DNA from: Arthrobacter citreus
GTDB lineage: Bacteria > Actinomycetota > Actinomycetes > Actinomycetales > Micrococcaceae
DNA: 64,000 nucleotides
NCBI RefSeq assembly: GCF_038405225.1
Contig: NZ_CP151657.1
Span: forward strand, 2,666,001 to 2,730,000
Reading direction: 5' to 3'
Below, piece after piece: positions 8,970 to 39,704 of the stretch (the first letter of the stretch is position 1; the number at the start of each line of letters is the position of its first letter). Under the pieces are notes generated by a model, which saw only the letters and a list, made by a program, of their open reading frames with translations, made no database searches and was not told the DNA's origin. The position numbers were made by a program, and so were the translations under genes.

Positions 8970-8992
8970 GGCTGCCTAAATCATTCGCCCGC

Positions 8993-19217: not shown

Positions 19218-19973
19218 ATGGGTAAGCTTGACGGCAAAACAGCAATTGTCACCGGATCTTCCAGGGGAATCGGAGCTGAAGTTGCCCTCCTGCTCGCAGC
19301 GGAGGGCGCTGATGTCGTTATTAATTACCGCCAAAAGGCGCCCAGGGCGAATAAAGTGGTCAAGAACATTGTGGACGCCGGAGGCAAAGCGGTTGCTGTC
19401 GGTGCGGATCTGACCCAGGACGCAGGAATTCAAGCGCTGATCAACGCTGCGCAGGATTCCTTTGTTGGCCTCGACATTCTGGTACTCAATGCGTCTGGCG
19501 GGATGGAAACGGACCTGGGCCAAGGCTATGCACTGCGTCTGAACCGCGACGCCCAAGTTAATATGCTCATGGCCGCCGCGGAGATCATGCCATCGGGGTC
19601 CCGAGTAGTATTTGTGACAAGCCATCAGGCGCATTTTATAGATTCCGTAGAAACAACGGCTGACTATGAGGCCGTGGCCAGGAGCAAGCGGGCCGGTGAA
19701 GTTGCTTTACGCAAACACATTCCCGAGCTCGATGCCAGGGGAATCACCTTGGTAGTTGTCTCCGGAGACATGATCGAGGGCACGGCGACAACTATGCTCT
19801 TGGAGCGAGCCAATCCTGGCGCCGTTGAGGTGCGCCGGGCGGAGGTGGGCCGCCTCTATTCGGTGGGAGAATTCGCGGCTGAAGTCGCGGAAATGGCGAC
19901 CGCCCCAGTGCCCACCGGCCATATTGAGTATGTAGGCGGCGCCCGCACCTTCCAGGATGACGCCACAGCATAA
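19218..19973 (+). CDS. SDR family oxidoreductase, possible ketoreductase of the lipolanthine-like locus
   Basis: A 251-residue short-chain dehydrogenase. ATG 19218 has an AAAGGAG ribosome site, so the longer frame from 19182 is rejected. The Rossmann motif TGSSRGIG (12-19) and NAS (91-93) are normal, and Ser135 is present. The catalytic Tyr150 and Lys157 are seven residues apart (YEAVARSK) instead of the usual four, so the active site is atypical. It converges on the acyltransferase gene with four bases between the stop codons. The position suggests a beta-ketoacyl reductase for the acyl chain; it could instead be an unrelated reductase at the cluster edge. Confidence 0.75.
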   Translation: MGKLDGKTAIVTGSSRGIGAEVALLLAAEGADVVINYRQKAPRANKVVKNIVDAGGKAVAVGADLTQDAGIQALINAAQDSFVGLDILVLNASGGMETDLGQGYALRLNRDAQVNMLMAAAEIMPSGSRVVFVTSHQAHFIDSVETTADYEAVARSKRAGEVALRKHIPELDARGITLVVVSGDMIEGTATTMLLERANPGAVEVRRAEVGRLYSVGEFAAEVAEMATAPVPTGHIEYVGGARTFQDDATA

Positions 19974-19977
19974 GGGC

Positions 19978-20904
19978 CTAGGCAACAAAGTCCTTGAAAG
20001 CTGCCTTTCGGACATAATCTCGGGACCGAATGAGAAGTTTCTCAAATGAGGGGTCGTCCGGGCCGGAGAAGAGCGCAGAGTGTCCGGGGATCACCATTCG
20101 CTTGACCCCATAATCCAACATGGCCTGATACTGCTCCGCATTGACAAGCCTTCGGCTCCACCCGCGGGCCAGATCGTGTGAAACTTCTGGCCCGGTGGAG
20201 AGGCGCTTTCCATTGTCTGACAGGAGGAGACGGGAGGGGGCTTGAAACTTAAAGCGTGAATAAACTTCTTCTTCCAGGCGGTCCGCCAGCGGGGAAAGTG
20301 CCGGGCAATGCTCGGCACGCTCAACCGTGTAGAAGATTATTCCTCCAAGTCGCCGGACGCCATCACCGAAACGGTGAACAAGAGAAGCCGTTCCCGAGAC
20401 GGAAAAGACTCCCCGCTCCTGTACGACGCTGATGTCCAGCCAACCATTTGAATCCTCGGACAGCACATCCGTAATAAGCCGGTCCGTCATTTCTTGGGAA
20501 AGACGGGCGTAAAAAACGCAGGCCAAGGGAGCTTCAGCCTCGGAAAAGTAGGTTTCCTCCACCTGGGTGCTCCGGGTGATAAGTTCCACCATTTCCCTAA
20601 AGGACAGGCAGCCTGCGTGAACGGCCGCGGTGAGACTCCCAAAAGATTGTCCAGCTAGCAAGTCGGGTTGGCGCCTCGTCAGCTGTTCCCACGTTGCGGC
20701 CAACACCAGATGCTCAATCATGTACACCGTTTGGTAGATGTTCCAGTCATAAATCTCAGCTTCGCGATGCCGTTCGAGAAGATCCGGGCCCAGCACGGCT
20801 TCCGCCTGCTCCACAAGGTTCTGCCCGTACGGCACGGACTCAAGCAGCTCATAAACGTTAGGCTGCTTATTCGGCACAAGGCCGGAAAAGAGCAGAGCGA
20901 GCAT
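19978..20904 (-). CDS. acyltransferase, malonyl-CoA:ACP transacylase (FabD) related
   Basis: A 308-residue protein. ATG 20904 with an AGGAG site is preferred over an upstream in-frame start at 20997. It has the FabD-type nucleophile elbow GQSFGS (Ser87) and a candidate catalytic His199 (EHCPALSP), though this segment departs from the common FHS form. It follows the ketosynthase gene by 34 bases as last gene of the di-iron protein/ACP/KS/AT operon. It most likely loads an extender or starter acyl group on the ACP encoded two genes upstream. Sequence is divergent, so acyl specificity is not predictable. Confidence 0.75.
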   Translation of the reverse strand: MLALLFSGLVPNKQPNVYELLESVPYGQNLVEQAEAVLGPDLLERHREAEIYDWNIYQTVYMIEHLVLAATWEQLTRRQPDLLAGQSFGSLTAAVHAGCLSFREMVELITRSTQVEETYFSEAEAPLACVFYARLSQEMTDRLITDVLSEDSNGWLDISVVQERGVFSVSGTASLVHRFGDGVRRLGGIIFYTVERAEHCPALSPLADRLEEEVYSRFKFQAPSRLLLSDNGKRLSTGPEVSHDLARGWSRRLVNAEQYQAMLDYGVKRMVIPGHSALFSGPDDPSFEKLLIRSRDYVRKAAFKDFVA

Positions 20905-20938
20905 GTTCTCTCCTGAAAATGGTGATGTATGAGGCCAA

Positions 20939-22207
20939 TTAACCGAGAACAAGAGCCGCGTTGCTACCCCCGAATCCCGATGAGGAGGACAAGGCAAGGC
21001 CGCCTTCGAGAGCCTGCGGTTGTCCCCTCACGAGACACGCAGACGTGGGGATAGGGTCCTCGCAGTTGAGGATTGGCGGTGTTTCTCCAACCCGCAGACT
21101 TTCCACGACCACGGCCACCTCTATACCGCCGGCTGCGGCGAGTGTGTGGCCGATATTCGACTTAATGGCCTGGACCGGCACGGAGCTCACCCGATCCATG
21201 CCGAGCACGGCAGTGAGGGCTTCCAGCTCAAGCGGGTCGTTCTGGGGTGTCCCGGTGCCGTGAGCGCTGTAGAGACAAATATCCTCTGGGGTTGCGCCGG
21301 CCGACGTCATGGCCAGTTGAAGGGCTGAGCGGAGGCCCGCTGCGTCCTGATCCGGATTTGTCAGATGCCCGCGGTTTGTTGACATGCCATAGCCATAAAT
21401 GCGGGCTACGGGGCCGGCAGTCCGCAGCGCCGCGCGTTCTGGTGACTCGATGATGAAAGCGCAGGCTCCTTCAGCCGGGACAAAGCCACCCCGCCCTGAG
21501 TCGAATGGCCGGGAGCACTCCCGTGCGTGCTCAAACTTGTCCGAAGCAGCCGCACCGAGAATGGAGACCTGCGCGAGGCTGAAGGAGTCGATGGTTGCAT
21601 CAGAGCCGCCACAGATGACAAGGTCCACCACCCCCGCCTCGACCATCATGGACCCGGTGATTATGGCGGTGGTGCTTGACGCGCATTCCGTGTTCACCGT
21701 CAAAGTGAGCCCCGTCGCCCCAATGAGTTGCGCAATCATGGCCGGCGTAGCTGAAGGAGATGCATAAACGGCGCTGAAGGGAGATCCGCGCTTGAGGCCT
21801 TCGCGCCCCTTCCCCTCAAAGGCACGCATCGCCTTTTGGTACATACCGGGTGTCCCTGAGGAGGAACCCCAAATCACTCCGACCCTCTCCGGAGGGAGGC
21901 CGAACAGGGACTCCGTAGAGATGGCGCCCAGATCCCCTGTCCGCTGGCTCAGGAGGTCCGTTACCACACTCATTCCAAGCAGGGTTGAACGATCCGCATG
22001 CCGTCTTGTTCGGCTGGGAAGGTGTGAGATGGCCAGCAGAGAGTCATCAACCCGACCAACAGCTTGTCTGGTTTCGTCCTCTGGATCAATTCTGTATTCG
22101 AGGCCTGATGCTCCACTGAGAAGCTTCGCAAAGAATGACTCGAGATCGCCACCCAAAGGTCCGAGAACAGCCACCCCTGTGATGGCGCTTCGGGGATTAG
22201 CTGTCAT
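20939..22207 (-). CDS. beta-ketoacyl-ACP synthase (KAS II/FabF-like)
   Basis: A 422-residue condensing enzyme with the complete catalytic set: Cys175 in NTECASS, His316 in SAHGTGTPQND, and Lys349/His354 in KSNIGHT. This is the free-standing (type II) form, as in fatty acid synthesis or aromatic polyketide systems. Its ATG overlaps the end of the ACP gene by 11 bases. It should extend acyl-ACP chains within this locus, with the second long synthase at 23633 as a possible partner or starter-unit enzyme. Confidence 0.9.
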   Translation of the reverse strand: MTANPRSAITGVAVLGPLGGDLESFFAKLLSGASGLEYRIDPEDETRQAVGRVDDSLLAISHLPSRTRRHADRSTLLGMSVVTDLLSQRTGDLGAISTESLFGLPPERVGVIWGSSSGTPGMYQKAMRAFEGKGREGLKRGSPFSAVYASPSATPAMIAQLIGATGLTLTVNTECASSTTAIITGSMMVEAGVVDLVICGGSDATIDSFSLAQVSILGAAASDKFEHARECSRPFDSGRGGFVPAEGACAFIIESPERAALRTAGPVARIYGYGMSTNRGHLTNPDQDAAGLRSALQLAMTSAGATPEDICLYSAHGTGTPQNDPLELEALTAVLGMDRVSSVPVQAIKSNIGHTLAAAGGIEVAVVVESLRVGETPPILNCEDPIPTSACLVRGQPQALEGGLALSSSSGFGGSNAALVLG

Positions 22208-22475
22208 GATTCCTACGACGATCGCTAATAGTACTGACCAGCCACTGGACGCTCATGGCACGGCGCCGGTCCGGGTCGCTCATCGCTTCCTTGAATTCCT
22301 CTTCCACACTGACGCCAAACTTCTCTTCAGTAAAAACTGTCAGCTCCAGCACCGAAAGTGAATCCATATCGAGATCCTCCAAGAGATGTGATTCAAGATG
22401 TACCTCGTCAACTGCAGTATCCGTAGCCTCAGCGAGGAAGGGTAAAAGCTCCTGGGTCGTATCATCAGATTTCAT
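22197..22475 (-). CDS. acyl carrier protein
   Basis: A 92-residue acidic protein with the phosphopantetheine site LDMDSLSVLEL (Ser39). ATG 22475 has an AAAGGAA ribosome site; a longer frame from 22523 lies inside the preceding gene. It overlaps both neighbours by 11 bases, indicating coupled translation and fixed stoichiometry with the di-iron protein and the ketosynthase. It is the expected acyl donor for the GNAT acyltransferase at 34456. Confidence 0.9.
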   Translation of the reverse strand: MKSDDTTQELLPFLAEATDTAVDEVHLESHLLEDLDMDSLSVLELTVFTEEKFGVSVEEEFKEAMSDPDRRRAMSVQWLVSTISDRRRNHDS

Positions 22476-23421
22476 CGGTGAATTCCTTTCGCAAATCACT
22501 CTTGGGCGCAATAACGTGTTCAAATATGTGGTCGCGGAATTTGTCGGTCATCCCAGCCTGGCCGAAGACGCGGCCGGCTGCCTGGCGCTGCAGTTGCGCC
22601 AAAGCACCGCCGGCGTCGTCACTGAAATCAGCAAGTTCCATAGCAAGCGGAAGCGTGCGTTCAAGGACATCTTCGACGGCTTCCCTGTGCCCCTCTTCAA
22701 TGCCGATTCGAAGGGCATGCATTCCATAGCTGATGTGACGGGATTCGTCGCGTGTCAATGCCGCGAAGGAACTGCGCACACCGGGAAGGACACCCACACG
22801 GCCGAGGAGGCTTACTACGAGGCGTTGTCCGCTTAAAGCCAGCACACCCTCATTCACCATGTGAAAGAGTGCCACTCCGCGAATCCAGGATTCGTAGTCA
22901 CCTGGATTGTTGGTGATGTTGCCCATGATTTCACCCTCAATAAGGGACAACTCACGATGAGCGGGCTCGGCCATATCCCAGGCTGTCCGCAGCATCGCTT
23001 CAGGGCTCTCGTCGACGCCGAGCAACTCTCTCCCGAGACGAAACATGAGCTGCGTGTGTTTGGCTTCGTCGGATGCCTGCGTGGTTATGAAAAGCAGATC
23101 TTCCTCGTCGGGGCTGCCTAGCATGACGGGGGCGAGAAGGTCAGTGCCGGTGTACTCGCCGATAATAAATGTGTAAATTAAACGCTCAATTTCCACGCGA
23201 AGACGGGCAGGTAATCGGTGGTGGAAATCATAAACGTCCTGCTCAAGATCAATGGCCGACAGCTGCCATTGCTGGCGGTCCCAGCGCTCGAAAAGCTCCT
23301 GCGGACCCGGCCGTTCTCCGGCCACTCGGTCGGCGTGCGCGAGAAGGGAAGCTGTATCAACACGGCCGAGTTCCATCACCTCGGCTTCATCCACTCGAAG
23401 CGTGCTCCATCGGTCAACCAC
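22465..23421 (-). CDS. R2-like di-iron (ferritin-like) oxygenase or desaturase
   Basis: A 318-residue all-helical protein with the four-helix di-iron ligand set: Glu89, Glu119-x-x-His122 (DEAKH), Glu191 (NEG) and Glu226-x-x-His229 (DESRH). The frame resembles ribonucleotide reductase small subunits and R2-like ligand-binding oxidases, but it stands with an ACP and ketosynthase and no large reductase subunit. A role as oxygenase or desaturase on an acyl-ACP is therefore more likely than nucleotide reduction. It starts at GTG 23421 with a GGGGGA site and leads the four-gene operon. Confidence 0.7.
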   Translation of the reverse strand: MVDRWSTLRVDEAEVMELGRVDTASLLAHADRVAGERPGPQELFERWDRQQWQLSAIDLEQDVYDFHHRLPARLRVEIERLIYTFIIGEYTGTDLLAPVMLGSPDEEDLLFITTQASDEAKHTQLMFRLGRELLGVDESPEAMLRTAWDMAEPAHRELSLIEGEIMGNITNNPGDYESWIRGVALFHMVNEGVLALSGQRLVVSLLGRVGVLPGVRSSFAALTRDESRHISYGMHALRIGIEEGHREAVEDVLERTLPLAMELADFSDDAGGALAQLQRQAAGRVFGQAGMTDKFRDHIFEHVIAPKSDLRKEFTDEI

Positions 23422-23632
23422 GAGTCCCCCAACTTAGGTGTGTGGCACGCATGACTCGCGCGCCTGCTAAAAGACGCTACCGGGCAACTCTTGCAAGAGA
23501 ACTACTCACTTTGGCGATCTCGCTCCTTCTTAAGGAGGAGAAAGCACAGGCGCAATACGACATAGGATTTCGCGTATTGAACCGATAATTGCAGCCCTCC
23601 ACGTTACCGACCGAAGCAGGAGATTTGCCAAG
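23422..23632. promoter_or_regulatory. divergent control region of the acyl-assembly genes
   Basis: This 211-bp region separates the di-iron/ACP/KS/AT operon (minus) from the long ketosynthase (plus) and must hold both promoters. It contains an inverted repeat CTCCTT-CTT-AAGGAG at 23523-23537. No confident -35/-10 pair could be assigned. Confidence 0.4.
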
Positions 23633-25264
23633 ATGTTTGAGCGGCCACCCGTAGTTTCGCCGCGCACCGGCAGAATCTCCCCAGATGCTTCCGAGTCTTT
23701 TGGTCGCTCGCTTCGTGAAGTCCTGGCAGGAAACGATGAGCTTCCTGAAGCGCTGCTCATTGATATCGGGCAATACATCGACGGGGTTTCGGGAGCTTTC
23801 TTTGATCAAACATCTCAACGCCAGCGGGTTTCACCGCGCCTCTCGCTGAACCTTGAGCCGGCACAATTCCTCAGGGCGGGCCTTGCCGGCACATCGCTTC
23901 CGCGGCAATTACCCATTTACCTCGTGCGCGCACCCGATTCCGTGCGGACCAGGGCTTTCGCGGTCCACGAGACCACCGAATTATCTGAAATCGAGGACAA
24001 CCTGCTTGGCTTCCTCCTCCCTGGCGAGGTTTTCCTAACACCCCAGCTGATCCTCAAAGGAGATGTTGTCAACAAATGGCTTGCATTTAGGGCGCCTGGG
24101 CGGCCGGCGTCGGCATGCGGGGGACGAGCAGTTCCACCGGCCCCGAGCCACGTGGAAAACCGTGGAGCCGAAGAACCTGATGCTGACGGGCTGGCTATCG
24201 TGGAGATGGATCTGATGTCTCAGGCAGGCTCGTCCCTTGAAGAACATATTGCCGCTTTCCAAGGCCGGCGCAACGTCCACGATTCCAGGGCAACCGCGGC
24301 AGATGTGGGTTCGGTGCCCACAGGGCTGCAGGAAACGTGCCAGTCAATACTGCATGCTTTGGAGGGGCATTCCGGTTTGCCGCGTCTGGACCGACTGGAG
24401 TATTTTTTCGCCGGAAGCGGCACACTGGCCGCTCCAGATACGGAAGCTGCTGATTCGCAGGGGGTGCGAGGCTTCCTTACTCCGCCTACCCTGACCTATA
24501 TGGGTTCCTCGCTGGAGCCCGTCATCTTCTCGCATGCCTGTGCCAGCGTCATTTTTGCCCTGCACCGTGCCCGGGCGAGGATCCGGACCGGGGCCGTGGA
24601 CGCAGTGCTGCTGGCCGGTGGTCTGCAGCTTTCGCCTGAAACGGTCCAGTCGATGTCCTCTTTAGGGACGCTCAGTAACTGTCAGGCCCGGCCTTTTGAC
24701 GATCAGCGGGACGGAACCCACATCAGCGCCGGTTACGGCGCGCTCCTGGTCATGCATCCGAATATGGCACGCAGACTGGGTCATACAGTAAGCGGAGTCA
24801 TACGGTCCCTGCACATCGATGTCGAAGATTTCGGAGCAGCAACTGATTCGGACCAGGTTGCACGGCACCTCTCCTCCACCCTCAATACCGGGTTATGCGC
24901 TCCTGATGCAGTCGTTGCCCATGCCACGGGAACCCTACAAGGAGATGATTCCGAAGCGCGTGCCCTCGCCACACTATTAGATCCGGGTACGCCGGTTGTG
25001 GCCTCGAAGGGGGCTACCGGCCACCTGCTGCATGCTGCAGGTTTCACAGGGATTGGACATGCGCTCGCTCTCCTCGGACAGTCGACTATCTGCGGGACCA
25101 TCGGACTAACAAATCCGCTGCAACAGCCTTTGTGGATGCCCGTGGAGGGAGAGAAGGAGTCACTTTCAGGACCTATCCGTCGAGTGCTGGTCACCAGTGT
25201 TGGCTTTGGTGGAAATCTGGGTAGCTTGGTTTTGGAGTCCCTTATCCCAGTCGAGCTTCGTTGA
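23633..25264 (+). CDS. long beta-ketoacyl synthase with extra N-terminal domain
   Basis: A 543-residue protein; ATG 23633 follows CAGGAG. The C-terminal half is a thiolase-fold ketosynthase with Cys303 (SHACASV), His430 (AHATGTLQGDD) and Lys459/His464 (KGATGH), so the active site is complete and it is not a chain-length factor. The first 220 or so residues precede the usual synthase start, and no domain was recognised there; a Pro/Ala-rich linker lies near 150-170. It is divergent from the FabF-like synthase operon. It may start chains with a special acyl group or perform the last condensation. Confidence 0.75.
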   Translation: MFERPPVVSPRTGRISPDASESFGRSLREVLAGNDELPEALLIDIGQYIDGVSGAFFDQTSQRQRVSPRLSLNLEPAQFLRAGLAGTSLPRQLPIYLVRAPDSVRTRAFAVHETTELSEIEDNLLGFLLPGEVFLTPQLILKGDVVNKWLAFRAPGRPASACGGRAVPPAPSHVENRGAEEPDADGLAIVEMDLMSQAGSSLEEHIAAFQGRRNVHDSRATAADVGSVPTGLQETCQSILHALEGHSGLPRLDRLEYFFAGSGTLAAPDTEAADSQGVRGFLTPPTLTYMGSSLEPVIFSHACASVIFALHRARARIRTGAVDAVLLAGGLQLSPETVQSMSSLGTLSNCQARPFDDQRDGTHISAGYGALLVMHPNMARRLGHTVSGVIRSLHIDVEDFGAATDSDQVARHLSSTLNTGLCAPDAVVAHATGTLQGDDSEARALATLLDPGTPVVASKGATGHLLHAAGFTGIGHALALLGQSTICGTIGLTNPLQQPLWMPVEGEKESLSGPIRRVLVTSVGFGGNLGSLVLESLIPVELR

Positions 25265-25348
25265 GCTTGCGGGCATCCAAGGTGCGTTGGGGCCTACGCC
25301 TGACCGCTGCAGATCATCCCATGTTGTCCAGGGTGAAGACTGGTGCCG

Positions 25349-25621
25349 TCACTGTCCCTTCGGGCCTTCGGGCTTCCAGGGACGCGTCTCCCCCGCAGCG
25401 TCCATCACCCGTCCTTCAATCGGCGGTTCAGGTGAACCGGATGAATCAGGGGACCCGGCTTTTCCATCATGCTTCATCTCTTTGACCTCGGACTTGAGGA
25501 TCCGCATCGATTGTCCCAGACCGCGGGCAATTCCTGGAAGTCTGGCGGCTCCAAAGAGGACTACAGCCAGAACAACCAGGACGAGCACGGCCCACGGATT
25601 GTCAAATAACCTGCCCATCAT
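25349..25621 (-). CDS. tatA: TatA/E-type twin-arginine translocase component
   Basis: A 90-residue protein; ATG 25621 has an AAAGGAA site (ATG 25618 follows directly). It has one N-terminal helix (WAVLVLVVLAVVLFGAARLP), the FG hinge, an amphipathic helix (IARGLGQSMRILKSEVKEMK) and a hydrophilic Pro/Ser-rich tail, the full TatA layout. No tatC is linked, so it must work with translocase parts encoded elsewhere or be an accessory copy. Its place inside the biosynthetic region is notable, but the link may be accidental. Confidence 0.8.
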   Translation of the reverse strand: MMGRLFDNPWAVLVLVVLAVVLFGAARLPGIARGLGQSMRILKSEVKEMKHDGKAGSPDSSGSPEPPIEGRVMDAAGETRPWKPEGPKGQ

Positions 25622-25743
25622 GGCAGTTCCTTTCTCACAGCAAATACCGGCCATGCCTTGAGGGTTTTAACAATTCCTCCATAATCCGGAACGGGCGGCT
25701 TATTGCCGTAAGTGTTGACGCCCTCATCGCGTGCAACCACGCG

Positions 25744-25956
25744 TCAACGAGACTCCGGTCCGGACGCTTCCTCGTTGTAGTTACTGAACAGGGCCCAAAC
25801 AAGCGAGATTAGCCCGATTACGGCGAAGACTAACCCCACCTTGGCTGGATCGATAATCCCCCACGAGACTCCCGGCATGGTCAACCAAACTATGCCGCCG
25901 GCCACAATAGAGACAACGCTCCAGAAAATGTCCTTTTTCTTTTTGTCGCTTTTCAT
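25744..25956 (-). CDS. small two-helix membrane protein, function unknown
   Basis: A 70-residue protein from ATG 25956 with an AAGGAG site: a lysine-rich start (MKSDKKKKD), two membrane helices (about 12-30 and 40-60) and an acidic tail. The longer frame from 25995 has no ribosome site. It lies between tatA and the flavoprotein gene in the same direction. A role as immunity or transport helper is possible but nothing in the sequence proves it. Confidence 0.6.
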   Translation of the reverse strand: MKSDKKKKDIFWSVVSIVAGGIVWLTMPGVSWGIIDPAKVGLVFAVIGLISLVWALFSNYNEEASGPESR

Positions 25957-26037
25957 GTCTTGCTCCTTGCGTTCGAAGGGGTGTAGCTGTAGCACATTGC
26001 CAATCTAGGCCCTTCAAATCCTCTGCAACATCCTTCG

Positions 26038-31750: not shown

Positions 31751-31804
31751 GAGACTCTCTTACGTTTTCAGGTCATCCGGAGTAAGAAGATTGGTAGGGA
31801 GCGT

Positions 31805-31842
31805 GGATCACGGCGGGCGGCGATGGCCGCCCGCCGTGATCC
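31805..31842 (-). terminator. strong hairpin directly after the lanthipeptide precursor gene
   Basis: A perfect 16-bp GC-rich stem (31805-31820 with 31827-31842) and six-base loop begins 8 bases after the precursor stop. The RNA continues with no clear U run, toward the next gene at 31750. It is likely a partial terminator or a 3' stabilising structure that raises precursor mRNA over the enzymes. Confidence 0.75.
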
Positions 31843-31850
31843 AGCCACAA

Positions 31851-31934
31851 TCAGCAGCCGTTGCTGATCGTCGAACCGAGGTCAAGTGCCTCGCTTTCAG
31901 CGTTCTCGAATTTCTGAAGTTCCAAGATGTTCAT
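31851..31934 (-). CDS. lanA: class III lanthipeptide (lipolanthine-like) precursor peptide
   Basis: A 27-residue peptide read from ATG 31934, four bases after a strong AAAGGAGG site; the longer 61-residue frame from 32036 lacks such a site and starts inside lanKC. The leader begins MNILELQKFE, holding the class III recognition pattern (Ile/Leu-x-x-Leu-Gln). The peptide ends in ALDLGSTISNGC: Ser21-x-x-Ser24-x-x-Cys27, the labionin-type Ser/Ser/Cys spacing, with Cys as the very last residue as in lipolanthines. LanKC next door would phosphorylate and dehydrate both serines and add the Cys thiol, giving one crosslinked ring pair. The cleavage site is unknown; the core may be 8-12 residues. Confidence 0.88.
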   Translation of the reverse strand: MNILELQKFENAESEALDLGSTISNGC

Positions 31935-31977
31935 GTCTCCTCCTTTCGGGATTTCGGTGGCCGAAGGCCGATGGGAC

Positions 31978-32014
31978 GCGCCGATCGGCGCGCCTTCCGC
32001 AGCATCAAGCTGCG
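31978..32014. other. palindromes between lanKC and the precursor gene
   Basis: The 86-bp gap after lanKC holds a perfect 14-bp palindrome GCGCCGATCGGCGC (31978-31991) and a hairpin CGCAGC/GCTGCG (31998-32003 with 32009-32014). These may pause or process the transcript between synthetase and precursor, allowing separate dosage. Confidence 0.45.
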
Positions 32015-32020
32015 AAATCT

Positions 32021-34459
32021 TCAGTCGGAGTGACACGCTCCGAAAAGAATTGAGAGGCCGCGCCAGGAAGGCCGGGGCGTGCCGTCGAGCTTTGACTCGA
32101 CGGCTGACCAGCCTGCGGTGCCGGTCAGCAGGTCGCCGCTCACCCGGTTTCCGCCGCGCCCTGCCAGGGCCAAGCCATAGGGTGTCCGCACCAGGTGATT
32201 CCGCATTCGTTCCCTCTGGCAGCGAATCTCAGCGGCGTAGGATGTGCCGGTGAGCTCGCCGAGCCAGACAAGCCCGGCGATGAGACCCGCCCTTCCCTCG
32301 CCGGCCCCACCGTCGAGGACCAGCGGATAAGCGGCTGCGGCAGCTAAGGGGCGCCACTGTTCAGCGGGAAGTCCGAGATCAGCCATTGCCACGGCAAGAC
32401 CGACGCTCCCCGTTCCGAGATAGGGAAGAAGGCGTTTGCCTATTCGCAGCTGGGCGCCATTTTCCTGCTGGACAACTGCAGAACGATCCTCCGTAATCAG
32501 GGCGTGTGCTGTATCTCGGAAACCGCCAGCGTCTCCAATTCTTCGCTCCAGGTTCATGAGTGTCCGAGCAGTGCCAGCACCTCCGCTTTCAAGTCCAGGT
32601 GTGCGGTTCTGGGAGGAACCCGGCCAGACCGCGACGATCCTCCGCCCCAGTTCCTCCGCCGCTTCTGTCCTGCCCAGCACCAGGGCCGAGGCCAGGATCC
32701 CTGCCAGTCCCGTACTCAGTGAGACGTCCGTGCATCCGGCGGCAGACTCAAGCGCGCGGTCAAAGACGGTTTCAGCAAGCGTCTTTCTTCCTAACAGATG
32801 GGCACAAACGGCGATCCCGCTCCAACCGAACCAGAGCCCCGGTTCATCCGAAGCCGCATTCTCGGCTGACTGCTCCCACCGGTCGACAGCCAGGCCCCAC
32901 GAACCGCAGCCATGAGCGTCCAAGAGGTGCCCGCCCCGCCCTACAGCTAGCCCGAGCGATGCCAGTATTCCGCGATGGCTTAAGGCGTCGAGGGGGATAG
33001 CCCGCGAGCTGTCCTCCAGGCGGCGAGCACTCCAGTCTCTGCCGTCATGGATGTCCTGAGCGGTGTGCAGCTGCAGCCGGGGTAAAGCCTTCTCCGCGGC
33101 GGTACATGCGGCCTCCGCCTGATCCCCGTACATCGACCTGGTCTCAGCGATGAGCTGCTCGGCACAGGTATGGTCAAGGTGCACCGTCCCGCCCCACCCC
33201 GGATTGAGCATCCAGTGGGACATAACGTCCAGGGCGGCCATGTCAGTCTCACTCGCGATACCCTCACGAGTGAGGAACCCGGGGCAGCCGTTTGGTGGCC
33301 GCCCGGTGGTCGAGGCGGGACTCGACTGCTCAAAGTCTATGAGGCTGATTTGAAGGTCGGGAGACACGAGGACATTCCCCGGATGGAGGTCGTTGTGTGC
33401 AATACCGCGGGCGTGGAGGAGCGCGAGGAGGTCCCTGAGCCCACGGTCAATTTTCGAACAAAGGCGAAGATAGGAATCAAACGCTTCAGGCGAGCTTCTC
33501 CCCTGAAGCGCGGGATGATGCCTGGCGACCCAAGAGCGGAGCGGGACACCGTCAAGCCTGCTGGTGACGAGGAACCGGTGGGCGCCAATGTCTTTGAGTT
33601 CGAACTTCTCCGGGATCCCCTGAACCCCCCGGAGCATCTCCAAAGTTTTGGCCTCGCAAGCTAGCCGCTCTGCGGCTGGTACTTGGCCGGGACGCTCATC
33701 GATCGCTTGCCTGGCTTCCTTGATAATCACCTCGCGGTCTCCCCTGAGCCCCACGTAAACCCCGCCGGCTGACGTGATTTGAACAGCACCTGTCACCGTG
33801 ACATCCATGTCGAACATCGGCGGCCGCGGCCGTTGTTCAACTAAGCCCAGTTCAGCCATAGGAAGAGAAGCGGTGGAAGCCGGAATTGACCGAACGTCCT
33901 CACGACTCCCCTGGGAGTCCTCCACTAAGAGAATCCGTCGGCCTTCCGGAGTCCATTCCGTCCGGCGTTTGAAAGCACCCCATCGAACAAACACGCTGGA
34001 GTTTTCCGACCACTGGAAATCCGAGAGAACGTGGGGGCCGTTGGACCTAGGGAGCCTTTCGTGAAGGATTTGTGCCAGCTCCTCGAAGGAATCCCGGTGG
34101 GGATACAAGACAGCGAACTTACCGCTTGCAGATCGTGGCGCCCATTTAGAGTTGAAGGCAGCCAGGAGTGCGCTCGAGCAAAGGTGCTTGAAGCTGACTT
34201 CATGTTCTCGACATATGTCCGTCACTGTTCTGAGGACGGCGTGTGAGCTGCTGACTCCACTCGAGACGTGGATCTTCCAGCCATCTGCCAGGCTCTGGAA
34301 GTCATCTGTCAGGTGGGTGCGCCACACTCCGTTCGTCGCTGATGCGTGAGCGCCGCCAGGTTGCCAGTCTGCAAATGTCTCCACCCATTCGGGCGCCCAT
34401 GCTGAGGGTGGTAGGGATTCAACCCGGTCGGCCAGAGTGAAGAGGGAAAGTACGCTCAT
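32021..34459 (-). CDS. lanKC: class III lanthipeptide synthetase LanKC
   Basis: An 812-residue three-domain enzyme. The N-terminal lyase domain (about 1-210) carries SASGKFAVLYP (110-120). The Ser/Thr-kinase domain (about 220-480) has Lys247 (VIIKEAR), HNDLHPGN (355-362, catalytic Asp357 and Asn362) and metal Asp375 in IDFE. The C-terminal LanC-like cyclase domain (about 500-812) shows no clear zinc-binding Cys/His set, as is normal for class III. It phosphorylates Ser, eliminates phosphate and cyclises, acting on the 27-residue peptide encoded downstream. It overlaps the GNAT gene by four bases (ATGA). The length is close to that of other LanKC proteins (about 800-900). Confidence 0.92.
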   Translation of the reverse strand: MSVLSLFTLADRVESLPPSAWAPEWVETFADWQPGGAHASATNGVWRTHLTDDFQSLADGWKIHVSSGVSSSHAVLRTVTDICREHEVSFKHLCSSALLAAFNSKWAPRSASGKFAVLYPHRDSFEELAQILHERLPRSNGPHVLSDFQWSENSSVFVRWGAFKRRTEWTPEGRRILLVEDSQGSREDVRSIPASTASLPMAELGLVEQRPRPPMFDMDVTVTGAVQITSAGGVYVGLRGDREVIIKEARQAIDERPGQVPAAERLACEAKTLEMLRGVQGIPEKFELKDIGAHRFLVTSRLDGVPLRSWVARHHPALQGRSSPEAFDSYLRLCSKIDRGLRDLLALLHARGIAHNDLHPGNVLVSPDLQISLIDFEQSSPASTTGRPPNGCPGFLTREGIASETDMAALDVMSHWMLNPGWGGTVHLDHTCAEQLIAETRSMYGDQAEAACTAAEKALPRLQLHTAQDIHDGRDWSARRLEDSSRAIPLDALSHRGILASLGLAVGRGGHLLDAHGCGSWGLAVDRWEQSAENAASDEPGLWFGWSGIAVCAHLLGRKTLAETVFDRALESAAGCTDVSLSTGLAGILASALVLGRTEAAEELGRRIVAVWPGSSQNRTPGLESGGAGTARTLMNLERRIGDAGGFRDTAHALITEDRSAVVQQENGAQLRIGKRLLPYLGTGSVGLAVAMADLGLPAEQWRPLAAAAAYPLVLDGGAGEGRAGLIAGLVWLGELTGTSYAAEIRCQRERMRNHLVRTPYGLALAGRGGNRVSGDLLTGTAGWSAVESKLDGTPRPSWRGLSILFGACHSD

Positions 34460-35079
34460 CGAGCAAGGACTCCCTCTGACGCCAACTTTTCGAGCAGCCG
34501 TTCCGACCGTTCTCGGAGTTCACCGGAAATCATAGGTACATAAGTGAAAGCCGACTCGGGATGGACCTCAACCGTCAACTGGTCGTACTCAGCACGGGTC
34601 TGCCCCCAGATGAGACAGTCTTCGAAGTTACCGTCGACGTAATAGTGGTCCCGAAGCCGGCCCTCAAGGGTGAAGCCACCCGAAGAAAGAGTGGATATGG
34701 CGAGCGGGTTTACGACGAGCGTCAAAGCGAAGATTTTATTTGCATCGAGTGTCATGAAGAGATGGTCAATCAACCGGGAAGCCGCAAGCGCACCCCGCCC
34801 GGTCTCCCAAAGAGATTCCTCCCCTACGAGGACTGCTACTTCGTAGTTGCGTGGATTCCCCTTTGACGCGAATGTCCCCAGGCCAAAGGGTTGGTCATTC
34901 TCGTCAGCGAACACCAAGAGACGACCCTGCTCGTTCATACTTAGGAGATCACTCGATCTAACGTTCTCACGCAGATCGTTGGTTAATCCCGCGGCTACGC
35001 TCCCAGGCCCAAACCATGAGCTGAGCAATAAGGCCTCTGCATCGCCCTGAATTCGGCGCAGCGTCACCTGTGGCTTCAT
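34456..35079 (-). CDS. GNAT family N-acyltransferase, probable lipopeptide-forming acylase
   Basis: A 207-residue protein of the GNAT fold; the central part (about 55-160) has the ADENDQPFGLGTF strand pair and the RDHYYVDGNFEDCLIWG ending typical of RimJ/RimL-like members, with an extra C-terminal helix of about 40 residues. It is the first gene of the lanKC operon (ATG 35079) and its stop overlaps the lanKC start. In the goadvionin pathway a GNAT protein joins an ACP-bound polyketide to the processed peptide N-terminus; by position and neighbours this protein is a candidate for the same job. A self-resistance acetyltransferase is the main alternative. Confidence 0.78.
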   Translation of the reverse strand: MKPQVTLRRIQGDAEALLLSSWFGPGSVAAGLTNDLRENVRSSDLLSMNEQGRLLVFADENDQPFGLGTFASKGNPRNYEVAVLVGEESLWETGRGALAASRLIDHLFMTLDANKIFALTLVVNPLAISTLSSGGFTLEGRLRDHYYVDGNFEDCLIWGQTRAEYDQLTVEVHPESAFTYVPMISGELRERSERLLEKLASEGVLAR

Positions 35080-35570
35080 CGAATCGTCCCCCGATCGTTC
35101 GAACTGTTCGGGATGACGCTATTCGATATAATCGGGACCCAACATCGTTCCTTGAGATGAAGTGTGCCTACTTCGAATGGCGGAGTTGACACTCAAGCCA
35201 TATGACGGTTGCGCCTGCCTCCGCCTCTCTGTATTTCTGCCCACGCCCCGCAGATATAACGTTCGCCCCTGACAGATTCGCATTGTTATACCGGGTAGGC
35301 CGATGATGGCCATAACCCAGGGGCCCGCCCTCCTCGCTGCATCGACCGGGGATTGGAGCGGGCCTGATTACCCTAAAAGGGCAGGAACTTCAATGCCTAA
35401 CTCCTACTTCCTTTGGACACCCTGCGCCCGCTAACCGGAAGGTAGTACGATAAGCCACCAGATAGGGGTGGCCCCTTTACCAGTTGCCGGCGTTTGGAGT
35501 TTCAACTGCATTCACGTATACAAAACACGGGGGCCGTGTCCGGGACCAGACTCACTGGTAAGGTTCGATA
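35080..35570. promoter_or_regulatory. 491-bp divergent control region between GNAT-lanKC operon and sensor kinase
   Basis: No convincing gene lies here. It must carry the promoters of the biosynthetic operon (minus) and of the two-component genes (plus). A 13-residue plus-strand frame (35393-35434, AGGAAC site) could be a leader peptide but is unsupported. The region is A/T-richer than the average of the window. A/T-rich GATTATATCG near 35127-35136 on the minus strand is a possible -10 area. Confidence 0.4.
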
Positions 35571-36803
35571 ATGCTCGCCAAATACTCACGGTCAAGTGTT
35601 GTTATTGTCCTCGTATACGTGAGCGTCATAGTTATTTCCACGCCTGGCCCCGGCGATAATTTGTGGTCGTGGACATCAGACTCCATCTATCCAAATTTGC
35701 TCATTTCCCTGCCAGGGCTTACCGGGCTGCTTGTGAAACGCACAAAGCCGAAATGTTCCTTAGCCCTCATCTGCGTCTCAGCCGTTCTCAGCCTGGCTGT
35801 TGGCAGCGTTGTCCCAGCCATGATGTTCCTATTCGATTCATCCTATTCTTTTGCTGAACGTTTGGCCCTGAGCCATCGCCGTTCATTGCTTATTGGGGCA
35901 TCCGTTATCACCGCCCTGGCATGCACCTGCGCTTTTATCAGCGGAAACATCCCGTTCGCCACCACAATGTTGTTTATTATCGGCGTTTCCGTTTGGCTGC
36001 CGCTGTTCTGGGGGTTGGACATCGTAAGTGCGCACCAGCTCGCCCATGCGGAACGGGAACGCGCATTGTCATCCATGCAGAGCCTTGCAGATCGCGCAGA
36101 GCTGGCATTAGCCGAGGAGAGGGTATGCATGGCAGCAGAGTTGCATGACACGGTCTCATCGCGGCTGGCCGCCATTGCCCTCCAAGCCCAGGCTGCACGG
36201 ACCCTCCTGAAGGGTGAGCGGGAAACCGAGATCATCAAACAAATTCACTCTGAGGCCATTCAGGCGCTTGGGGATATGAAGGTCCAAATTGCACTCCTGA
36301 GCGGGGCTTCTCCCCTCACTGTTAATGAGGCTGATTTCAACGAGTTATCGCAGCTTGTTGATCGGTCCAAGGCCCTGGGGCAATCCGTTGAGTTGGACGG
36401 GCCCGAACTTGAGGGACTCAGCCAGCCTTCCTCCCAGGTCCTGTACAAGATCGTCCACGAAGCACTTCTCAACGCCGCAAAGCACGCCCCTGGCGAGAAG
36501 GTGGAAGTTCGATGGACCGTCAATGACTCGTCCGTGCAGTTAGACGTGATAAACAGACTTCCCGACAAATTGCGGGATCTTTCCGGACCTGCTCCCCTGT
36601 GCGAGCCTTCGCCCGGCATTCCCGGCACTGGGCTGGGCCTGTCCTCTCTAGAGCGCCGGGTACTGGCCTTTGGAGGTGCATGGTTTGCCGGCCCCAGCGG
36701 CCAACGCTGGTGCATTGAGGCAAAGATCCCTCATCCACTCCCCTGGAGCTCGCACACCTCTGCGACACCTCACATCAAACTCAACCGAGAGAGACCAGTA
36801 TGA
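35571..36803 (+). CDS. two-component sensor histidine kinase (NarL/DesK-type)
   Basis: A 410-residue kinase with about five N-terminal membrane helices (1-150), a short coiled region (155-185), the HisKA_3 phosphoacceptor AAELHDTVSSRLA (His192) and a C-terminal ATPase with HEALLNAAKHA and GTGLGLSSLERRV. There is almost no extracytoplasmic domain, so it probably senses through the membrane, as bacteriocin- or envelope-stress kinases do. ATG 35571 has an AAGG site. It overlaps the response regulator by four bases and diverges from the lanthipeptide operon. Confidence 0.9.
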   Translation: MLAKYSRSSVVIVLVYVSVIVISTPGPGDNLWSWTSDSIYPNLLISLPGLTGLLVKRTKPKCSLALICVSAVLSLAVGSVVPAMMFLFDSSYSFAERLALSHRRSLLIGASVITALACTCAFISGNIPFATTMLFIIGVSVWLPLFWGLDIVSAHQLAHAERERALSSMQSLADRAELALAEERVCMAAELHDTVSSRLAAIALQAQAARTLLKGERETEIIKQIHSEAIQALGDMKVQIALLSGASPLTVNEADFNELSQLVDRSKALGQSVELDGPELEGLSQPSSQVLYKIVHEALLNAAKHAPGEKVEVRWTVNDSSVQLDVINRLPDKLRDLSGPAPLCEPSPGIPGTGLGLSSLERRVLAFGGAWFAGPSGQRWCIEAKIPHPLPWSSHTSATPHIKLNRERPV

Positions 36804-37444
36804 CTACCCGAGTCCTCATCGCCGATGACCACACCAGCATAAGATCAGGATTGCGCATGATCCTCGAAGCCGCGGGGTTCGCCGTCGTCGGAGAAGCCTC
36901 GGATGGAAACACTGCCGTTTCGATGGCGCGGCGCCTTGCACCTGATGTTGTCCTCATGGATATCCGCATGCCGGGCTGCAATGGGATTGAGGCTACACGG
37001 GAGATCGTTGCTCAGGGGTCCTCGAACGTCCTCATCCTCACCGCCTTTGATTTCGATGAAGATGTTCTCGGCGCAATCCGTGCCGGTGCCAAAGGCTACG
37101 CACTCAAGACCCTCGAGACCGAAGATCTGGTGCGCGCAGTCGGATCCGTGGCCCAGGGGAACAGTATCCTGGACCCCGACGTTGCCGGCACAGTAATGCG
37201 CACCATCGCCGAGAGTTCCCCCTCACCGGGGTTCGAAGCGGACTCCTGGCCACCCCCGGGACTTACGCCTCGCGAGGTGGCCGTCATGGAGTGCATTGGT
37301 GAAGGGCTTACGAATAGGCTGATTGCCCGAAAGCTCGGGGTTGCAGAAACTACCGCCAAATCCCATGTTTCAAGTGCCCTCGGGAAGCTGCAACTCACCT
37401 CGCGGGTGGAGGCTGCCATTTATGTGCTGTCGCGAAAGCACTAA
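36800..37444 (+). CDS. LuxR/NarL-type response regulator
   Basis: A 214-residue regulator: receiver domain (1-120) with Asp9/Asp10, phosphoacceptor Asp54 (VLMDIRMP) and Lys103, and a C-terminal LuxR helix-turn-helix (about 150-212: LTPREVAVMECIGEGLTNRL). It is coupled to the kinase by an ATGA overlap. It likely controls the ABC exporter downstream and perhaps the biosynthetic operon. Confidence 0.92.
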   Translation: MTTRVLIADDHTSIRSGLRMILEAAGFAVVGEASDGNTAVSMARRLAPDVVLMDIRMPGCNGIEATREIVAQGSSNVLILTAFDFDEDVLGAIRAGAKGYALKTLETEDLVRAVGSVAQGNSILDPDVAGTVMRTIAESSPSPGFEADSWPPPGLTPREVAVMECIGEGLTNRLIARKLGVAETTAKSHVSSALGKLQLTSRVEAAIYVLSRKH

Positions 37445-37864
37445 TATAAATCTGACTGGTGATCCACATCCATCCGGAGATTATGGCCCAGTAATAACCC
37501 GTTTGTTTCCCTGATATCACGCGAAGAACCGACATAACGTGAATTCAGCAGGAGACAGGGATTTCTCTGATGGCACGGTGTCCAGTTGAGGCTTTGTCCC
37601 GAAAAAGATCTGTGCATGATTCAGGCAAGCTCTGTGATTTTATGCTGTCAGGTGATAGAAAAGGTTCGTATCAGTCCCGTCGCCGGAATTACCTATGCGA
37701 TCTGCATTATTTGTCCGGTGTTCCCAGCTGTTCGACTGGTGATTAGCGGAGGCCGCTGGAGCGCCGAGAAAGCTGATTATCGATCCACAACCAAGCAACG
37801 TCTAAGAGGTGGGAAATGGTGGACAACACTCAGGAGCGGGCTTGCAGTCCGGGAGGGTGGCAGC
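37445..37864 (+). promoter_or_regulatory. 420-bp leader region of the ABC exporter
   Basis: No recognised gene. Two small frames exist: 37570-37746 (58 residues, basic and Cys-containing, weak ribosome site) and 37816-37872 (see separate entry). The frame of the exporter itself stays open back to 37586, but that extension has no ribosome site and unnatural composition. The region may hold a regulated promoter and leader. Confidence 0.35.
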
Positions 37865-37872
37865 GTGCCTAA
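37816..37872 (+). CDS. possible 18-residue upstream leader ORF of the ABC exporter
   Basis: ATG 37816 sits behind a good AGAGGTGGG ribosome site and reads MVDNTQERACSPGGWQRA before a stop that overlaps the GTG start (37865) of the ABC gene in another frame. Such an arrangement would couple exporter translation to the leader. It may equally be chance. Confidence 0.3.
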   Translation: MVDNTQERACSPGGWQRA

Positions 37873-39649
37873 AAAACCGGTCTCCCAACCGCCGCCCGCA
37901 GACCTGCGGGACCTAATGGTTTACCTGCGTGAACATCTGCCGGTCCTCGCCCTCGCCGTGGTCATCTCCCTGGTCGGTGCTGCGCTCAGTCTTGGGCAGC
38001 CGCTGGTCGTGAACCAAGCCATCACGGGCGTAAGCGCTGGGGAAACCAACTACACCGCAGTGCTGGTTCTCATCGGGCTGGTGGTGGGTTCCGGCCTCCT
38101 CGGAGCTTTTCAACTGTACCTACTTGAACGTACTGCTGAGGGCGTGGTGCTTAGCGCGAGACGTCGGCTGCTGCACAAATTGCTGTGGATGCCTATCGAG
38201 GAGTACGACGCGCGCAGGGTGGGCGATCTGGTTTCACGGGTCGGATCAGACACCACCATGGTGCGCGCGGCTCTTACGGGCGGCCTCGTTGACGCCCTCG
38301 GTGGGCTGTTGGTCTTTGCCGGTTCTCTGATTGCGATGGCTTTCTTGGATCTGGTGCTGTTGGGCATCACCTTAGGGGTGGTGGGAATCGCTGTGGTCAC
38401 CGTCGTCATTGCCAGTGCGCGGATCCAGGCCTTGACTCAGGCTTCCCAGGAAGCTGTTGGCCGGGTTGCCTCGGGTGTGGAACGTGCCCTGTCAGGAGTC
38501 CGGACCATCAGAGCTGCAGGAGCCACCGAACGTGAAGAACACAGCCTGGGCCAAGAAGCGCAGGCCGCTTACAGCTATGGAGTTCAGACTGCAAAGGTAG
38601 GGGCTGTGTTGTGGCCAATCAGCCAACTGGCCATCCAGGTTTCCTTCCTGGCCGTGCTGGGTGTTGGTGGATTCCGGGTTGCAGCAGGGACGATGTCTGT
38701 GGCTGATCTGGTGACCTTCATACTGTTCTTGTTCATGATGCTCATGCCACTAGCCAATGTGTTTGGTGCAGTCATCACGGTCCGAAGCGCTTTAGGGGCG
38801 CTTGCCCGGATTCAGGAGATCCTCAACCTTCCAGTGGAAAGCACCGACCACGACGCAGCTGTCCAGACGACTACGCGCAGCTTGAACGCACCTGTCAGTG
38901 GTCCACATCGAAATACCCCCGTGCCGCTGATCGAGTTCGATGGCGTCACCTTCTCCTATCGTGATTCTGCGCCTGTCCTGCGGGACGTTACTTTTTCCGT
39001 TGCTGCCGGCACAACCACAGCAATCGTCGGCCCCTCGGGGGCAGGGAAGTCGACGCTGCTGGCCCTTGTCGAACGCTTCTACGAACCGGACAGCGGCACT
39101 ATCCGTCTGGAGGGAGCGGATCTGCAGACCATTCCCAAAGCTGTTCTCCGGAGCCAGATAGGTTATGTCGAGCAGGACGCGCCAGTGCTGGCCGGCACCG
39201 TCAGGGACAATCTCGTCTTGGCCAGTCCCGGCATGGTTGACCGCCGGTGTCGGGAAGTCTTAGCGTCAGTGAACTTGCTTCAGCGAATAGATGAGCATCC
39301 AGACGGACTCGACGCTGCTGTCGGCGACGGTGGAGCGGGCCTATCCGGTGGCGAGCGCCAACGTTTGGCGATAGCACGAGCTCTGGCGTCCCACACTGAA
39401 TTGCTGTTACTTGACGAGCCAACTGCCAGCCTGGACGGGCGCAATGAACGGGCCCTGCATGACGCCATTTGGTCTGCCGCCGCCAGCCGCACAGTAATAG
39501 TTGTGGCACATCGGCTGGCTACTGTCGCTCATGCCGATCAAATTGTCGTCCTCGAAGCCGGACACGTTGTATCGGTCGGCACTCATGCAGAACTTCTGGA
39601 CAGGAGCCCGCTGTACCGAGAGCTCGCCCAGGACCAACTTTTGAAATAG
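37865..39649 (+). CDS. ABC exporter, fused membrane and ATPase domains
   Basis: A 594-residue half-transporter from GTG 37865, which follows GGGAGGGTGG. Residues 20-340 form a six-helix exporter domain; the ATPase domain has Walker A GPSGAGKST (389-397), LSGGE (493-497) and LLLLDEPTAS. It lacks an N-terminal C39 peptidase, so it would not cut a leader. As the only exporter in the locus, next to a two-component system, it is a candidate for export of the lipopeptide or for self-protection. It would act as a homodimer since no partner gene is linked. Confidence 0.85.
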   Translation: MPKKPVSQPPPADLRDLMVYLREHLPVLALAVVISLVGAALSLGQPLVVNQAITGVSAGETNYTAVLVLIGLVVGSGLLGAFQLYLLERTAEGVVLSARRRLLHKLLWMPIEEYDARRVGDLVSRVGSDTTMVRAALTGGLVDALGGLLVFAGSLIAMAFLDLVLLGITLGVVGIAVVTVVIASARIQALTQASQEAVGRVASGVERALSGVRTIRAAGATEREEHSLGQEAQAAYSYGVQTAKVGAVLWPISQLAIQVSFLAVLGVGGFRVAAGTMSVADLVTFILFLFMMLMPLANVFGAVITVRSALGALARIQEILNLPVESTDHDAAVQTTTRSLNAPVSGPHRNTPVPLIEFDGVTFSYRDSAPVLRDVTFSVAAGTTTAIVGPSGAGKSTLLALVERFYEPDSGTIRLEGADLQTIPKAVLRSQIGYVEQDAPVLAGTVRDNLVLASPGMVDRRCREVLASVNLLQRIDEHPDGLDAAVGDGGAGLSGGERQRLAIARALASHTELLLLDEPTASLDGRNERALHDAIWSAAASRTVIVVAHRLATVAHADQIVVLEAGHVVSVGTHAELLDRSPLYRELAQDQLLK

Positions 39650-39670
39650 GTCAAGCGTGGATTAGCCCTA

Positions 39671-39699: not shown

Positions 39700-39704
39700 C
39701 CGCC

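Follow-up and report, generated by a model that had tools for sequence, protein, structure and literature searches.

A lipolanthine-like island of Arthrobacter citreus in which class III lanthipeptide genes stand beside discrete acyl-assembly enzymes

What does a locus make in which the genes for a class III lanthipeptide stand in line with a set of separate acyl-assembly enzymes? The question is raised by a stretch of 64,000 nucleotides of Arthrobacter citreus (here called the window; NCBI RefSeq assembly GCF_038405225.1, contig NZ_CP151657.1, positions 2,666,001 to 2,730,000), part of a genome of 3.88 Mb in a single contig (labelled G000). A first-pass annotation had put forward a lipolanthine-type biosynthetic locus here, with a lanthipeptide synthetase (LanKC), a short precursor (LanA), a GNAT, an adenylation-aldehyde dehydrogenase fusion (A-ALDH), a thiamine diphosphate (ThDP)-dependent enzyme, a flavoprotein, a di-iron protein, an acyl carrier protein (ACP), an acyltransferase (AT) and two ketosynthases (KS1 and KS2). 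All of the genes that it named are found where it had placed them, each with a family match (some of these below curated cut-offs; Table 1). Overall, we estimate a probability of about 0.68 that the locus, which lies on an island, makes and exports one N-terminally acylated class III peptide, with a tail that discrete enzymes assemble and oxidise.

Evidence that these genes belong together comes from another genus. Searching 295 genomes of the family with the A-ALDH protein gave five matches at E<=1e-20: three are full length (the own genome, G041 and G071) and two cover the adenylation half only. In G041, which belongs to another genus, an operon of eleven collinear genes is found (GNAT-LanKC-LanA-A/ALDH-ThDP-flavoprotein-small membrane protein-R2lox-ACP-KS-AT) at 36-78% protein identity, so that chance proximity can be rejected as an explanation of the clustering. 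Neighbouring G041 genes are spaced at between -14 and +39 bp; six pairs overlap by 4-14 bp and a seventh by 1 bp (values that depend on the start codons used). Given that the genes are contiguous and overlapping, both minus-strand blocks of the window form one operon there. The single minus-strand operon of the first-pass annotation is thus uninterrupted in G041 but falls into two pieces in the window (35079-25744 and 23421-19978), and its gene list, correct in what it contains, lacked a 70-aa membrane protein of the operon, for which no Pfam match was found. The pathway as it had been drawn, a ribosomal peptide with LanKC, GNAT and discrete acyl-assembly enzymes, is kept as a unit.

Between the two blocks, which are joined in G041, lie the plus-strand KS2 and a lone tatA. 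KS2, the short-chain dehydrogenase/reductase (SDR) and the ABC exporter were considered as core genes and rejected, since the G041 operon lacks orthologs of them; none was found for TatA either. The histidine kinase (HK) and response regulator (RR) are divergent in the G041 neighbourhood. The gaps flanking LanA are 86 and 100 bp in the window and -4 and 21 bp in G041. The very stable hairpin directly after the precursor gene of the window is a candidate attenuator or 3' stabiliser; a structurally equivalent, likewise very stable hairpin of different sequence (an 85-nt piece, -39.0 kcal/mol) lies directly 3' of the G041 precursor.

The peptide genes have the features expected of class III, a LanKC with RamC-type lyase, kinase and cyclase: RamC_N scores 138 bits (cut-off 27), and NF038151 scores 451 bits over 40-784 (below its cut-off of 575). 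A cognate class III precursor, MNILELQKFENAESEALDLGSTISNGC, scores 28.4 bits against NF038154 (cut-off 22), and its core GSTISNGC is identical at 8/8 positions in the window and G041. The lipolanthines (microvionin, nocavionin, nocaviogua and goadvionin) likewise combine a class III LanKC with acyl assembly genes beside the peptide genes, and further likenesses are the short precursor with its S-x2-S-x2-C core (nocaviogua) and the GNAT (goadvionin). The window core has both this spacing and the C-terminal Cys. Nocaviogua reads MGFA-Ala-Avi-Val-Ser-Avi-Asn/Asp-Gly-Avi (PMC10435860), from which we infer a core A-S-V-S-S-N-G-C; G-S-T-I-S-N-G-C equals it in spacing and in the SNGC end. Related precursors end in GSTISNSC (G883), GSTISNNC and SSTVSNNC (G775), and ASFTSSYC and ASFRSDHC (G071). 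Labyrinthopeptin-type labionin peptides also have a LanKC and no decarboxylase, and a C-terminal Cys is possible in them as well, but their labionin motif is S-x2-S-x3-C, whereas the island core has x2 spacing and is accompanied by a GNAT and an acyl module.

The GNAT, proposed as N-acyltransferase, scores 23.8 bits against PF13302, just below the cut-off of 25.4, and shares 65% identity with the GNAT at the syntenic place in G041. In selidamides too a GNAT lipidates the ribosomally synthesized and post-translationally modified peptide (RiPP). The acyl groups of selidamides sit on Lys/Orn side chains and stem from primary-metabolism fatty acids (PMC9505594, PMC10373908), whereas GSTISNGC contains neither Lys nor Arg and has no place for Lys/Orn acylation.

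Where our results depart from the first-pass annotation is the name, since avionin is required of any lipolanthine strictly so called. In a review, the model for AviCys requires a flavin-dependent Cys decarboxylase (LanD), with MicKC-MicD acting for microvionin (PMC10373908). With PF02441, G000 and G041 each yielded a single gene that lies outside the cluster and is probably CoaBC (frames of 460 and 445 codons), and no dedicated gene was found for LanD or another homo-oligomeric flavin-containing Cys decarboxylase (HFCD) in either genome. G071 has a second PF02441 gene inside its cluster; G883 and G775 have two and five, none of them inside the fetched clusters, and one of the G883 genes lies on the same contig, ~62 kb from the A-ALDH gene. 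A home-made HFCD hidden Markov model (HMM) was built from ten PF02441 proteins, with the G071 cluster gene kept out of the training set as probe (3/13 candidates did not match this probe and were excluded). Among the 22 loci scanned it matched G071 (3.6e-24) and G387 (1e-19), and it gave no match in the window, G041, G883 or G775 loci. The flavoprotein was tried as LanD and rejected: it matches PF13454 and no HFCD model. At the gene level (PF02441 in the genome, the HMM in the window) a LanD/MicD for making avionin is therefore missing, the known route is not expected to yield avionin, and a labionin-type ring with a free carboxyl becomes the default. Most likely the C-terminal carboxylate is retained in the product, and we set the island apart as a lipolanthine-like variant of lipidated RiPPs (lipo-RiPPs), not as a lipolanthine.

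It might still be argued that avionin is formed without a dedicated LanD, with the R2lox-like oxidase, host CoaBC or the island flavoprotein catalysing the oxidative decarboxylation of the C-terminal Cys, which would make the product a true lipolanthine. We find this unlikely, even though the spacing and SNGC end shared with nocaviogua speak for it, and a flavoprotein homolog occurs in all four LanKC+A-ALDH clusters without a cluster HFCD while it is not matched in G071, the one cluster with HFCD. This pattern comes from n=5 clusters, two of which are close kin, and the HFCD lack of G883 is not absolute because of the PF02441 gene ~62 kb away. Furthermore, the solved kin of the flavoprotein is an N-hydroxylase, an R2lox-like homolog also occurs in G906 at a locus without LanKC, and the reviewed AviCys model uses LanD (PMC10373908). 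Finally, the GNAT-LanKC cluster of G455 has no HFCD in 36 kb, and its tandem precursors end in GSSVSYNCG and NSSASWNCGG, the ring Cys being followed by one or two Gly.

What tail would be attached? Genes of the polyketide synthase (PKS) or fatty acid synthase type, as expected beside a lipolanthine, are found in the form of ACP, AT, KS1 and KS2, all discrete and not modular. For the AT no Pfam match was found, and its scores with the mdcH (56 bits) and fabD (52 bits) models are both far under the equivalog cut-offs. The adenylation A10 lysine is kept in 12/12 full-length A-ALDH fusions. In the ALDH halves (standalone proteins included) the catalytic Cys is present in 16/16 and the ELGG general-base Glu in 0/16. 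Without this Glu, a thioester would be passed to a thiol, or the acyl group reduced to an aldehyde; the sequence thus points to an acylating or reducing role. Given the fused adenylation domain, the simplest order would be acid, acyl-AMP, enzyme thioester and aldehyde, which resembles that of LuxE/LuxC. The ThDP enzyme groups, by its sequence, with acetolactate synthase-type enzymes. Its activating-Glu position holds Glu in the window and G041, Asp in 12/16 proteins and neither in G071 and G829, where the activating Glu is apparently replaced, as it is in glyoxylate carboligase.

We consider a different order less likely, in which the ThDP enzyme would form an aldehyde from a 2-oxo acid by decarboxylation, the ALDH half would oxidise it to an enzyme thioester and the acyl group would prime ACP/KS1 as a starter unit (comparable to the mandelate pathway). 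Matches of the ThDP enzyme include 5-guanidino-2-oxopentanoate decarboxylase and those of the ALDH half benzaldehyde dehydrogenase MdlD, each far under the model cut-off, and a guanidino fatty acid occurs in known lipolanthines. Such a route would leave the fused adenylation domain superfluous, however, and the best ThDP matches are acetolactate synthases.

The di-metal oxidase is tied to R2lox by its ligands (E, ExxH, E, ExxH), all of which are kept in 4/4 homologs, and by its fold: in a structure model with mean pLDDT 79.0, R2lox is the closest fold (top Foldseek hits; 24% identity). It differs in its score with the curated R2lox models of NCBIfam (at best 85.5 bits against 194) and in its genetic setting, an operon that also holds peptide genes and the gene of an acyl carrier; the G041 homolog is 74% identical. 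The closest solved relative of the flavoprotein is an L-aspartate N-hydroxylase (8cp2), matched at 4.5e-10 over 58 residues by the window protein and at 1.5e-82 by the G883 homolog. The substrate of 8cp2 is surrounded by seven named arginines (PMC10404684). Of these residues, the G883 homolog keeps 1/7 (Arg13), plus Asn413, in an alignment read by eye; it thus lacks the aspartate-binding Arg cluster and a different substrate is likely. The window flavoprotein is too poorly aligned to 8cp2 for this comparison. A more specific and rather doubtful proposal is that A-ALDH reduces an acid to an aldehyde, which the ThDP enzyme joins to another unit (acyloin/2-hydroxyacyl), after which the R2lox-type oxidase and the N-hydroxylase-like flavoprotein oxidise the chain and the GNAT puts this tail on a LanD-free bicycle. 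If true, this route would be a new biosynthetic class of lipo-RiPP, with a role for an R2lox-type enzyme.

To see how widely the A-ALDH/ThDP/KS module occurs, a three-sequence profile (E<=1e-60) was run on an order set of 396 genomes and a class set of 394 (sets that overlap others). In the order set 2/396 matched (the own genome, and G486 with the adenylation half only) against 10/394 in the class set, with full-length fusions in the own genome, G883, G993 and G775. A six-sequence profile (E<=1e-120) matched 2/35 genomes in the family of G775 and 23/200 in that of G883, seven of the latter (G883 included) with full-length fusions. We viewed the neighbourhoods of 12 full-length fusions (~15-19 kb per side, less at contig ends), which are whatever the searches turned up and not an even sample. 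In 12/12 the A-ALDH gene has both a ThDP enzyme and a KS in its vicinity. LanKC and GNAT are present as well at five of these loci (the window, G041 and, in more distant genomes of the class, G071, G883 and G775; five genera in all) and were not matched at the other seven (G993, G1073, G1067, G1173, G1147, G1163 and G1164), nor in G1175, where adenylation and ALDH are separate genes. The first-pass annotation had asked for co-occurrence of these genes in other genomes: the five clusters bear this out, but the seven loci go some way towards its own refuting condition. A module exclusive to lanthipeptides is rejected on this count, and A-ALDH/ThDP/KS is best described as a portable acyl module that is not RiPP-specific. 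Non-RiPP modules (e.g. G993, G1147) share the fused A-ALDH with its ThDP neighbour and differ in having no LanKC/GNAT match and a KS of another lineage than KS1. At the non-RiPP locus of G993 an ACP and an acyl-ACP desaturase adjoin the module, supporting an ACP-bound lipid substrate.

Given such loci, the peptide genes and the acyl module might be independent and merely co-located on the island, giving two products. We consider this improbable. The module is common without LanKC (7/12 loci), and a split trio occurs in a Streptomyces zaomyceticus plasmid cluster, where standalone ALDH, ThDP and AMP-ligase genes stand together without LanKC. Against this, in two genera the genes downstream of LanKC and LanA, beginning with A-ALDH and ThDP, keep the same direction and lie close together or overlap, and in G071, G883 and G775 too the module is accompanied by GNAT and LanKC. 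In the best trees the RiPP-linked A-ALDH (G993 left out) and ThDP proteins do not group as a single clade (they did so in 0% and 1% of bootstrap trees), although the supported branches by themselves are compatible with one origin, and in the LanKC tree the five A-ALDH clusters are not resolved as one clade although the label is clustered (1/500 shuffles as low). As a control from the LanKC side, 19/396 genomes of the order set have a LanKC-like match at E<=1e-25. A ThDP enzyme or full A-ALDH was matched in none of the 18 other LanKC neighbourhoods, one of which (G455) has a GNAT match beside LanKC, so discrete acyl enzymes of this kind beside LanKC are uncommon in the order sample.

Several further observations concern these loci. 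The Streptomyces zaomyceticus plasmid (L022), where the acyl trio adjoins a GNAT, a tyrosine aminomutase and two ATP-grasp genes, is a further user of that trio. KS2, of which the first ~300 aa have no Pfam match, is similar to KSs of G906 and G829 that accompany split ALDH/ThDP/AMP trios (36% over 222-250 aa). G455 (L093-L094) has a hybrid cluster of GNAT, LanKC and type I PKS, with NRPS-like open reading frames (ORFs) named by eye and no HFCD found in 36 kb; its two KS-bearing proteins (1783 and 1787 aa) are interpreted as type I PKS. A cluster of A-ALDH, ThDP, KS, ACP and FabI-like SDR (the SDR named by eye) recurs within the family of G883, in G1147 (L171-L172), G1073, G1067 and G1173; by eye, G1147 also has a desaturase-like ORF and a PKS-like ORF of ~1520 aa. 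Two scans of genome contigs for relatives gave no match, and neither did viral contigs scanned with the precursor DNA pattern.

For the acylated class III peptide that we favour, the following sequence of events may be proposed. LanKC would phosphorylate and eliminate Ser21 and Ser24, and a double Michael addition of Cys27 would close a labionin-type bicycle. Gly20 would be freed by an AplP-like M1 protease of the host. Leader removal by host M1 proteases may be drawn by analogy with microvionin, whose leader proteases MicP1/MicP2 are encoded outside the cluster (PMC10885120); G000 has two M1 peptidase genes. The acyl chain would come from AT, ACP and KS1 with host fatty-acid reductases. A-ALDH would convert a carboxylic acid to an adenylate, capture it on Cys and reduce or transfer it, with the ThDP enzyme making or breaking a C-C bond in a coupled step. 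The R2lox-like oxidase and the flavoprotein would oxidise the chain, and the GNAT would acylate Gly20 with the carrier-bound group. The ABC exporter would export the product under control of HK and RR. Least certain are the substrate of the A-ALDH/ThDP pair, the direction in which it works and the reaction of the flavoprotein. A large protease-like ORF of G071 (L020-L021, joined 8410-10986; domain judged by eye) lies beside its LanKC cluster with HFCD and is a possible leader protease.

A number of points weigh against this proposal. The product of the island is a prediction from its genes, and since GNATs also acetylate, the acyl group might be short. The operon common to the window and G041 has no ketoreductase, dehydratase or enoyl reductase (one SDR lies nearby in the window; G883 has two SDRs beside its KS). 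The adenylation P-loop lysine is kept in 9/12 fusions and not in G071, G883 and G775, and the 38 kb covered in G071 gave no match for ACP or AT. In the ketosynthase tree, KS1 of the window and G041 splits off from those of the other loci on a long branch with full support, so that orthology of the acyl pathway is only partial. The structure model of the flavoprotein is poor (mean pLDDT 41.8) and was not used. Lastly, the C-terminal Cys and SNGC end resemble those of a peptide that is decarboxylated elsewhere.

The locus occupies an island of ~20.7 kb. Among the four relatives aligned in detail (G007, G022, G009 and G018), the blastn flank alignments of G007 stop at window position 19011 and resume at 39705, with 45 bp in between, so the outer borders of the first-pass annotation were nearly exact. 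The gap between the flanks is ~990 bp in G022 and ~640 bp in G009; in G018 the left-flank match stops earlier, at 17417. The GC fraction is 0.586 in the island against 0.645 and 0.672 in the left and right flanks. As the flanks close up in relatives and GC is low, the region is taken to be inserted. Full-length LanKC was found in 1/29 genomes of the genus (the own), and the LanKC search gave kinase-region fragments only in the other 28. No integrase or transposase is among the genes annotated in the island, no tRNA was found in the window, and no direct repeats of at least 9 bp were found between the 300-bp stretches at the two island ends. The right-hand terminator that had been proposed at 39671-39699 is a real hairpin, but it lacks a T-run and is absent from the terminator-scan results.

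Table 1. Features of the island and its borders, in window positions (identities are those of the proteins to their G041 homologs unless stated otherwise).
Feature	Position	Strand	Evidence	G041
Acquired island	19012..39704		flank blastn and GC contrast; empty site in relative G007 = 45 bp	
SDR oxidoreductase, possible ketoreductase	19218..19973	+	PF00106, 77.7 bits	no match in region
AT, malonyl/acyl transferase	19978..20910	-	GQSFG motif	53%
KS1, FabF-like ketosynthase	20939..22207	-	Cys-His-His	59%
ACP	22197..22475	-	PF00550, 27.6 bits; DMDSL motif	62%
R2lox-like di-metal oxidase	22465..23421	-	six/six ligand residues kept; fold	73.5%
KS2, long ketosynthase	23633..25264	+	Cys-His-His	no counterpart (match there is the KS1 homolog)
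Lone TatA-like protein	25349..25621	-	PF02416, 46 bits	
70-aa membrane protein, candidate immunity/accessory gene	25744..25956	-	same place in G041	69% over 59 aa
FAD/NAD(P) flavoprotein, distant kin of flavin N-hydroxylase	26038..27543	-	PF13454; match to 8cp2	36%
ThDP-dependent enzyme, acetolactate synthase superfamily	27537..29123	-	family matches and motifs	49%
A-ALDH fusion, 876 aa	29120..31750	-	family matches; ALDH half without general-base Glu	50%
Hairpin, very stable, directly after precursor gene	31800..31846	-	-45.5 kcal/mol, z -8.1	
Precursor LanA, 27 aa, core GSTISNGC	31851..31934	-	NF038154 above cut-off	78%
LanKC class III synthetase	32021..34459	-	RamC_N, NF038151	51%
GNAT, proposed N-acyltransferase	34456..35079	-	PF13302	65%
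Histidine kinase (HK)	35571..36803	+		46%
Response regulator (RR), LuxR-type DNA-binding domain	36800..37444	+		70%
ABC exporter, transmembrane part and ATPase fused	37862..39649	+	GTG start chosen, uncertain; 44% to ABC beside G883 cluster	
Hairpin, 12-bp perfect, right border	39671..39699	+	-26.1 kcal/mol, z -4.6; no T-run	

Searches of an open-access full-text library (most subscription papers are outside its coverage) turned up no description of the gene combination of the island, nor a relevant one of the A-ALDH/ThDP/KS chemistry. Lipidated RiPPs are few; a 2023 account counts 12 lipolanthines, in three groups (PMC10435860). The island differs from them in that no dedicated LanD/HFCD was found in its cluster or genome, and in its discrete A-ALDH, ThDP, KS, AT, ACP and R2lox proteins in place of type I PKS modules. 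Known lipolanthine clusters have a type I PKS arrangement, which among our loci was seen beside GNAT-LanKC only in G455; this supports the earlier remark that the present arrangement looks unlike the known examples. Some lipidated RiPPs are strong antibiotics against Gram-positives, and the island offers a compact set of separate tail-making enzymes that could be recombined more easily than type I PKSs. To our knowledge no physiological role has been established for R2lox-type oxidases, and here such an oxidase is tied to an acyl pathway whose substrates (acyl-ACP) can be named. Finally, the island is a direct test case for the fate of the terminal Cys in a lipolanthine-like core without LanD.

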